This document shows, piece by piece, positions 44,050 through 45,176 of a DNA stretch of 50,335 nucleotides; within the stretch, counting starts at the first letter, position 1, and every line of letters begins with the position of its first letter. Source of the stretch: a virus; IMG/VR virus record IMGVR_UViG_3300042470_000725, positions 1-50,335 of that record, one strand, 5' to 3'. The notes under the pieces are model-generated. The model was given only the letters and a program-made list of their open reading frames with translations, was not told where the DNA came from and did no database searches. A program made the translations under genes and the position numbers.

Positions 44050-44154
44050 CTAGAATGGGATTTCATCATGGCACGCTTTGCACTCCCAAAGACCCCGGCC
44101 GACGTAGCGGACAGCCGGGGCCTTACAGAAGTCACAGAGCGGGCCGCTTAGGCC
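44050..44154 (-). CDS. Zinc ribbon reached by -1 frameshift from the SSB gene
   Basis: Open frame of 34 residues ending at TAG 44052-44050: GLSGPLCDFCKAPAVRYVGR, then GLWECKACHDEIPF. It holds CxxC-x14-CxxC, a textbook zinc ribbon. The frame is -1 relative to the SSB gene, overlapping its last codons. Going upstream, the -1 frame meets TGA within the YEAM repeat and has no ATG, GTG or TTG between that stop and the ribbon, so ordinary initiation looks impossible. C-CCC-CCG (44160-44154) at the end of the SSB gene is in the correct phase for a -1 slip, giving a 375-residue product. Frameshifting itself is inferred. Confidence 0.6.
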   Translation of the reverse strand, partial: GLSGPLCDFCKAPAVRYVGRGLWECKACHDEIPF

Positions 44155-45176
44155 GGGGGGCCTTGCATCATCCCGTGAGCGACAAGGGTCGCGTCGGTCC
44201 AGCCCGCCGCAAGCATGGCCTCATAAGACGCACCGCCAGCGGCCGGGAGCATGACGCGGACGGGAGCCGCCGGGGGCGTCGGCGCGGGCGCTGGCGGGGC
44301 CGGAGCGGGCCCGGCGCGGTACCCGTCGTATGCCGGGGCGGCGGGCGCTGCAGGGGGCACCGGCGCGGCCATGGGCGGGACGGGGGCCGGAGCCGGGGCG
44401 GGCGCTGCGGCCGGGGGCGGGGCCATCATGCCCGCCGCGATCAAGGCGGCGTCGGTCCAGCCGGCCGCGATCATGGCTTCGTACGTCACGCCGCCAGCCG
44501 CCGGGAGCATGACCGGGCCGACGCCGGGCATGGCTCCCGTCGCAACGGGCGTGACCGACGCGCCCGGGGGCAACGCCACGGGTCCGCCCGCCGTCCCAAA
44601 AGCATCTTCAGCCGACGGGCCGACGATGATCTCCGGGCCGATACCGTCGATTGCGAATTGACTCCAATTCATATGCAATCCGGGCTTTTGAGCGTTGTCG
44701 TTGCTCTTGATCGTCCCGGCGACACGGCCGTAATACCCGCGCTTGATCTCTTCGGGCCGCGCTTCCCGCCACGCGCCGCCTTCGCTCTTGACGACCTTGG
44801 GCTGGAATCCGTTGGTAAAGCGGACAACCCAATGACCGGCAAACCCGGGCAGGCGATTGAACGGCCGGCCGCGATCGTCGAAGCCGTCGCCGTCAACGAC
44901 CTTGTCGCTGAAAGTCGGAAGAACGCAGGGGCCGCCCGGGGTCGGATACAGGTGCGGCCACGAGAGCCGGGCTTCCGCGTCGATCAACGCTTTGAATGCC
45001 GGCCAAGCCGGGTCGGACTTGGCGAAGGCGAGCGCGACAAACCATTCCGTGCGCGCCTGTCCGGCGTTGGGGCCCGTCTTGATCGTCAGGGGCGCGCCCT
45101 GCATGTCCGTCGTATTCGGCTTAAAGGCGTCGCCCTGCACGAGCCGCCCGACGGGGCTGGTAAAATTGGTAGGCAT
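44148..45176 (-). CDS. Single-strand DNA-binding protein (DUF2815) with tandem UBA-like tails
   Basis: 342 residues. Residues about 1-185 are the DUF2815 domain: TNFTSPVGRLVQGDAFKPNT, TEWFVALAFAKSDPAWPAF, FAGHWVVRFTNGFQPKVV and GYYGRVAGTIKSNDNAQKPG, an OB-fold SSB used in phage replication. A Pro/Ala-rich linker follows. Two copies of LPAAGG.[ST]YEAM[IL]AAGWTDA.L[IV]A.GMM lie at about 222-251 and 308-337; this short three-helix unit is seen at SSB C-termini in related phages, where it may recruit partners. The gene ends with a C-CCC-CCG slip site before TAA. ATG 45176 follows AGGAGAGACC. Confidence 0.85.
   Translation of the reverse strand: MPTNFTSPVGRLVQGDAFKPNTTDMQGAPLTIKTGPNAGQARTEWFVALAFAKSDPAWPAFKALIDAEARLSWPHLYPTPGGPCVLPTFSDKVVDGDGFDDRGRPFNRLPGFAGHWVVRFTNGFQPKVVKSEGGAWREARPEEIKRGYYGRVAGTIKSNDNAQKPGLHMNWSQFAIDGIGPEIIVGPSAEDAFGTAGGPVALPPGASVTPVATGAMPGVGPVMLPAAGGVTYEAMIAAGWTDAALIAAGMMAPPPAAAPAPAPAPVPPMAAPVPPAAPAAPAYDGYRAGPAPAPPAPAPTPPAAPVRVMLPAAGGASYEAMLAAGWTDATLVAHGMMQGPPA

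Follow-up and report, generated by a model that had tools for sequence, protein, structure and literature searches.

A probable ribosomal frameshift adding a putative zinc ribbon and a bacterial SSB-type tip to a phage single-stranded DNA-binding protein

Most of the frameshifting known in tailed phages concerns virion genes. One case is the lambda tail assembly chaperone pair gpG/gpGT, where a -1 shift close to the 3' end of the gene likewise gives a minority product (PMC5009743), although this is a virion assembly gene and its protein is unrelated to the one described here. Among replication genes, bacterial dnaX likewise has two products, tau and gamma, which differ through a frameshift close to a stop codon (PMC5009743); it is another gene, and its frameshift removes an interaction part whereas the one proposed here would add it. 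An acidic tail is characteristic of the single-stranded DNA-binding proteins (SSBs) of prokaryotes and phages (PMC5686142), and in Escherichia coli SSB the C-terminal tip is DDDIPF (PMC5928155). Known DUF2815/gp2.5-like SSBs (Enc34 ORF6, T7 gp2.5) carry their acidic tail in frame (PMC5686142). The SSB of phage HK620 recruits its partner Sak4 through the SSB-Ct-like end NDYPPF (PMC5928155), again in frame and with no frameshift reported.

We have analyzed a stretch of 50,335 nucleotides, here called the window, from the IMG/VR virus record IMGVR_UViG_3300042470_000725. Its SSB shares with the DUF2815/gp2.5-like proteins the OB-fold core (by predicted structure) and the family phrog_7011, but its tip is encoded in the -1 frame, following a ribbon. 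This tip, D-E-I-P-F at the extreme C terminus, is identical to that found in the majority of SSBs from the probable host class, but here it would stand on an unrelated phage core, attached via the putative zinc ribbon and reached only by frameshifting. The original prediction knew of no programmed frameshift in a DUF2815 SSB, and we have found none in the open-licence literature, nor an earlier report for any phage SSB, a description elsewhere being possible. Neither PRFect nor a large-scale survey of frame transitions in prokaryotes mentions SSB in its main text.

The SSB gene and its 3' end

The features of the locus, all on the minus strand, are the following:

44148..45176, minus strand: SSB gene (phrog_7011, gp2.5-like), 342-residue frame-0 product
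44532..45176, minus strand: OB-fold ssDNA-binding core, about residues 1-215, from an AlphaFold2 model and structure matches
44424..44513, minus strand: C-terminal module, copy 1, VMLPAAGG-YEAMIAAGWTDAALIAAGMM, from sequence
44166..44255, minus strand: C-terminal module, copy 2, VMLPAAGGASYEAMLAAGWTDATLVAHGMM, from sequence
44154..44160, minus strand: slippery heptamer C_CCC_CCG, frame-0 codons CCC CCG, -1 codons CCC CCC
44148..44150, minus strand: frame-0 stop TAA, one codon past the slip site
44050..44154, minus strand: -1 frame extension and its stop TAG, GLSGPLCDFCKAPAVRYVGRGLWECKACHDEIPF, under purifying selection in the -1 frame
44071..44136, minus strand: putative C4 zinc ribbon, CxxC-x14-CxxC, -1 frame
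44053..44067, minus strand: SSB-Ct-like tip D-E-I-P-F, -1 frame, ending directly at the stop
44070..44145, minus strand: long imperfect hairpin, a candidate frameshift stimulator

The gene product matches the phrog_7011 (Gp2.5-like) profile with an E value of 7.7e-56. Against Pfam PF10991 it scores 13 bits, below the gathering cut-off of 26, so that it is not filed under PF10991 itself. The core was modelled with AlphaFold2 at a pLDDT of 86.6, and with this model Foldseek retrieved the DUF2815 protein 4klk (E 2.8e-10), the Enc34 SSB 5odl (8e-9) and T7 gp2.5 1je5 (9e-7); as modelled, the window SSB is an OB-fold protein like these three. The gene sits within a replication/recombination gene cluster. 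The module of about 30 residues, YEAMIAAGWTDxxLIxHGMM, is present in two copies in the window SSB and is C-terminal in most of the relatives. It is also found twice in the unrelated SSB-like protein of contig L020 (3350-4300), a weak match to phrog_862 that differs from the window SSB and shares this module with it, and in L043 it stands at the start of another gene, downstream of the SSB. The module has the appearance of a mobile C-terminal cassette.

The SSB coding sequence ends with the codons CAA GGC CCC CCG GCC TAA, and the frame-0 C terminus is GMMQGPPA, with no acidic tail in frame. The heptamer C_CCC_CCG is of the X_XXY_YYZ type and in the correct phase for a -1 shift. Past the SSB, the -1 frame reads RPPGLSGPLCDFCKAPAVRYVGRGLWECKACHDEIPF followed by TAG and terminates at 44050. 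From the upstream TGA to the residue before the first cysteine this frame has 27 open codons, and not one of them is ATG, GTG or TTG. The original prediction had been built on the CxxC-x14-CxxC ribbon ending at 44050, on the start-less stretch before it and on the heptamer at 44160-44154, whose CCC and CCG are indeed codons of the SSB frame; the sequence bears out all three. It had overlooked the DEIPF terminus and the hairpin, which begins 8 nt past the slip site. Judged by its residues, DEIPF is a form of the bacterial SSB C-terminal tip (SSB-Ct), and since the ribbon carries it, the frameshift acquires a likely function. The predicted fusion has 375 residues, against 342 for the frame-0 product. 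Pfam gave weak zinc-ribbon matches for the -1 tail (PF01780, E 1.6e-4; PF12760, E 3.9e-4), and the AlphaFold2 model of the ribbon (pLDDT 75) gave Foldseek E values above 0.7, with mostly zinc-binding domains as top matches; the ribbon may bind zinc.

Dinucleotide shuffles lead one to expect 27.5 copies of CCCCCCG in the whole window, which in fact has 9; this looks like avoidance of the slippery heptamer. Nine copies nevertheless mean that the motif alone is not rare, and the weight lies on its position and conservation. A phase statistic over all CCCCCCG sites of the window was discarded, since the greedy selection of ORFs behind it had given preference to spurious antisense frames. The distance from the slip site to the start of the hairpin is 8 nt in the window and about 5 nt in the relatives L002 and L104. 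RNA folding z-scores were between -3.6 and -7.3 at the six loci with a ribbon or Cys-tail, but several ribbon-less SSB genes were equally strong. Because strong hairpins follow many SSB genes of the latter kind, the structure supports frameshifting without proving it, and its value as specific evidence is weakened by these control loci. No intrinsic terminator was called at the hairpin.

Shifted-frame tips in the window lineage and in other phages

The window's own site is known from two distinct sequences, window/L001 and L002. L001 is identical to the window across 9,071 bases and may derive from related data. L002 (IMG/VR 3300023179_000175) is 95% identical in the SSB core and 88% over the fusion. 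When relatives were checked for the joint presence of slip site and -1 ribbon, as the original prediction had proposed, both proved to be kept in L002. The 16-nt slip/stop block GCCCCCCGGCCTAAGC is unchanged there; 3-nt deletions flank it on both sides and the ribbon carries an insertion of 6 nt, all multiples of three, so that the relative frame is kept. All four cysteines and DEIPF are preserved despite the diverged ribbon, and the open -1 frame of L002, as that of the window, contains no ATG, GTG or TTG. Comparing both sequences 3' of the stop, the -1 frame had a pS of 0.857 and a pN of 0.307 (Fisher p 8e-6), while the bias was not significant in the other two frames. Purifying selection acts on both the SSB frame and the -1 frame.

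Similar tips were found in shifted frames behind other phage SSBs. In L104, about 46% identical to the window SSB, the gene ends GTC CCC CAG TAA and the -1 frame encodes a four-Cys tail ending WDEIPF. In L020 the end is ACT TTT CAA TAG, with a -1 tail ending DEDDLPF; no relatives of this SSB were found in IMG/VR. The Rhizobium phages P106B and RHph_X2_24 and the contig L068 have in the +1 frame a CxxC...CxxC ribbon followed by DDDIPF or DDEIPY. SSB genes of this type (L028 near 3451, L033 near 3424, and L068) end with CGA TAA, overlapped by a +1 Asp codon GAT, and a very stable hairpin follows the stop in all three loci. Between P106B and X2_24 the shifted frame had a pS of 0.776 and a pN of 0.199 (p 9e-8), the other frames not being significant. 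The shift in this group may be either +1 or -2, the two being indistinguishable here, and the three members cannot all be explained by any one tRNA re-pairing. A ribbon search across phage records gave good scores in Rhizobium phages only. Profile alignment of the window ribbon with theirs reached a modest probability of 52%, and the P106B spacing is 14 residues as in the window; on both counts, the two lineages may carry a related tail, reached at -1 in one and at +1 in the other.

A further group, formed by Salmonella phages 9NA and Sasha, Klebsiella phages Carvaje and BU9, Morganella phage Henu15 and Proteus phage 2207-N35, has a +1 tail ending ...W-DDIPL without a ribbon. These tails, from enterobacterial phages of the 9NA/Sasha/Carvaje/Gorganvirus type, are located at the SSB stop of L029, L062, L064, L065, L066, L220, L221 and L225. 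In the shifted frame, 9NA compared with the Morganella and Proteus phages gave a pS near 1 and a pN of 0.26-0.29. TTT_C is invariant near the frame-0 end throughout the 9NA-to-Proteus group and might act as its +1 site; in influenza PA-X, UUU_C has been proven to serve for +1 shifting, although in a eukaryotic system (PMC3498833). The shifted-frame stretches VTVTDSYWNWDDIPL and RPFSNGLCFICEIDDDIPF are those that would join the SSB in 9NA, Proteus 2207-N35 or P106B fusions. In L076 (2501-3544) a DDIPF tip is in frame and without ribbon, a constitutive version of the same tip idea. Most SSB relatives carry no tip.

As a control, the pattern [DE][DE][ILVMF]P[FYLW] was sought at 1,847 non-redundant ORF ends from the gathered loci and the window. 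These loci had been gathered around SSB genes, and most of the ORF ends tested belong to other genes or antisense frames. Out-of-frame tips appeared behind phage SSB genes only; L076 figures in the control listing through spurious overlapping ORFs that read its in-frame tip. Because the ribbon is conserved in the -1 frame only in the window lineage and shifted tips are confined, among the ORF ends tested, to phage SSB genes, we do not consider the -1 arrangement a product of chance. For the locus search, an alignment spanning a wide range of SSBs proved too diverse. When 75 SSB cores were placed in a tree, groups with a tip were scattered among tip-less relatives. The window and L002 fell together with L104 and some others (94/87), the group of Rhizobium phages stood beside Psp6 and the 9NA-Proteus clade was distant, while L110, sister of L104, has no tail. 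To judge from this distribution, gain and loss of the tip are frequent among phage SSBs, and several origins of the shifted-frame tips are likely.

A second SSB form and the alternatives to it

We consider it highly probable that programmed -1 ribosomal frameshifting gives a second form of the window SSB, carrying the ribbon and DEIPF, and so doses the tip. Most ribosomes would stop at TAA and release the 342-residue SSB without acidic tail, and a minority would slip at C_CCC_CCG, tRNA-Pro re-pairing from CCC/CCG to CCC/CCC, to give a 375-residue protein ending in the zinc ribbon and DEIPF. Perhaps the slip is aided by the proximity of the stop codon, by the proline codons and by the downstream hairpin; how efficient it is would determine what share of the SSB bears the tip. 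The pair of 342 and 375 residues put forward in the original prediction is supported, at the level of sequence, by the conserved slip site and ribbon, the selection on the -1 frame, the lack of a start and the recurrence in other phages. The slippage itself, its efficiency, translation of the fusion, zinc binding and the recruitment of partners are inferred.

DEIPF would imitate the host SSB-Ct, and replication and recombination proteins that interact with SSB, whether those of the host or of the phage itself, would probably dock through it onto phage ssDNA. We have taken as probable host class that of an Acetobacteraceae MAG bearing a related phage SSB, the class which the window phage presumably infects. 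Prophage copies were sought in 385 genomes of this class, and just the known MAG was found, without ribbon. The class supplied 31 host-type SSB loci, of which 30 had a readable end: DEIPF in 19, DDIPF in 9, and DEVPF and DDVPF in one each. It is possible, if rather doubtful, that the frameshifting is as proposed but the tip serves mainly phage partners (exonuclease, annealase or polymerase) and not host proteins. The T7 gp2.5 tail serves the phage polymerase and primase-helicase (PMC5686142), the last six residues of HK620 SSB are needed to recruit the phage Sak4 (PMC5928155), and the location of the window SSB in a replication/recombination cluster would also suit phage partners. However, DEIPF equals the host-class tips, which goes beyond mere acidity, and the 9NA group, though ribbon-less, retains W-DDIPL.

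Production of the ribbon and tip as a separate tiny protein, by reinitiation or from a non-canonical start near the SSB stop, appears unlikely. Candidate starts do exist in some members: there is a GTG five codons into the conserved tail of X2_24, a TTG two codons ahead of the motif in L104, upstream ATGs in P106B and an ATG within the tail of Henu15. But no ATG, GTG or TTG precedes the conserved residues in the window, L002, L068, 9NA or Proteus, and in the Rhizobium phages these residues begin already at the GAT overlapping the frame-0 CGA TAA. An independent small gene was rejected, as most members have no start codon for it. Still less probable is transcriptional slippage on the C run, which would yield a fused mRNA in place of ribosomal frameshifting. 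The slip site is a homopolymer, and Thermus dnaX uses transcriptional slippage to the same end, a U5C4/C5 context being described in one IS element (PMC5009743). Nevertheless the runs are short (C6, C5 in L104, T4 in L020) when efficient bacterial transcriptional slippage takes 9 A or T (PMC5009743), and long runs are absent from the +1 groups. That the frame break is due to gene decay or to a mistake in sequencing or assembly, for which a single base in the C run would suffice and L001 might share the data origin, is hardly credible given the identical break in L002 with diverged flanks, the equivalent arrangement in independent records of other phages and the purifying selection on both frames.

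Programmed frameshifting remains our reading of the window, and taking all groups together it is likely that -1 or +1 frameshifting is a recurrent rheostat of tailed phages, dosing an SSB-Ct tip on structurally distinct SSBs. The phages concerned include the cultured 9NA, Sasha, Carvaje, P106B, Proteus 2207-N35 and Morganella Henu15, which makes the claim directly testable. If it is true, the annotated SSBs of these phages are without their functional C terminus, and work using the annotated ORF deals with an incomplete protein. Frameshifting would then set the stoichiometry of an interaction tip on SSB, a protein at the hub of both DNA replication and DNA repair.
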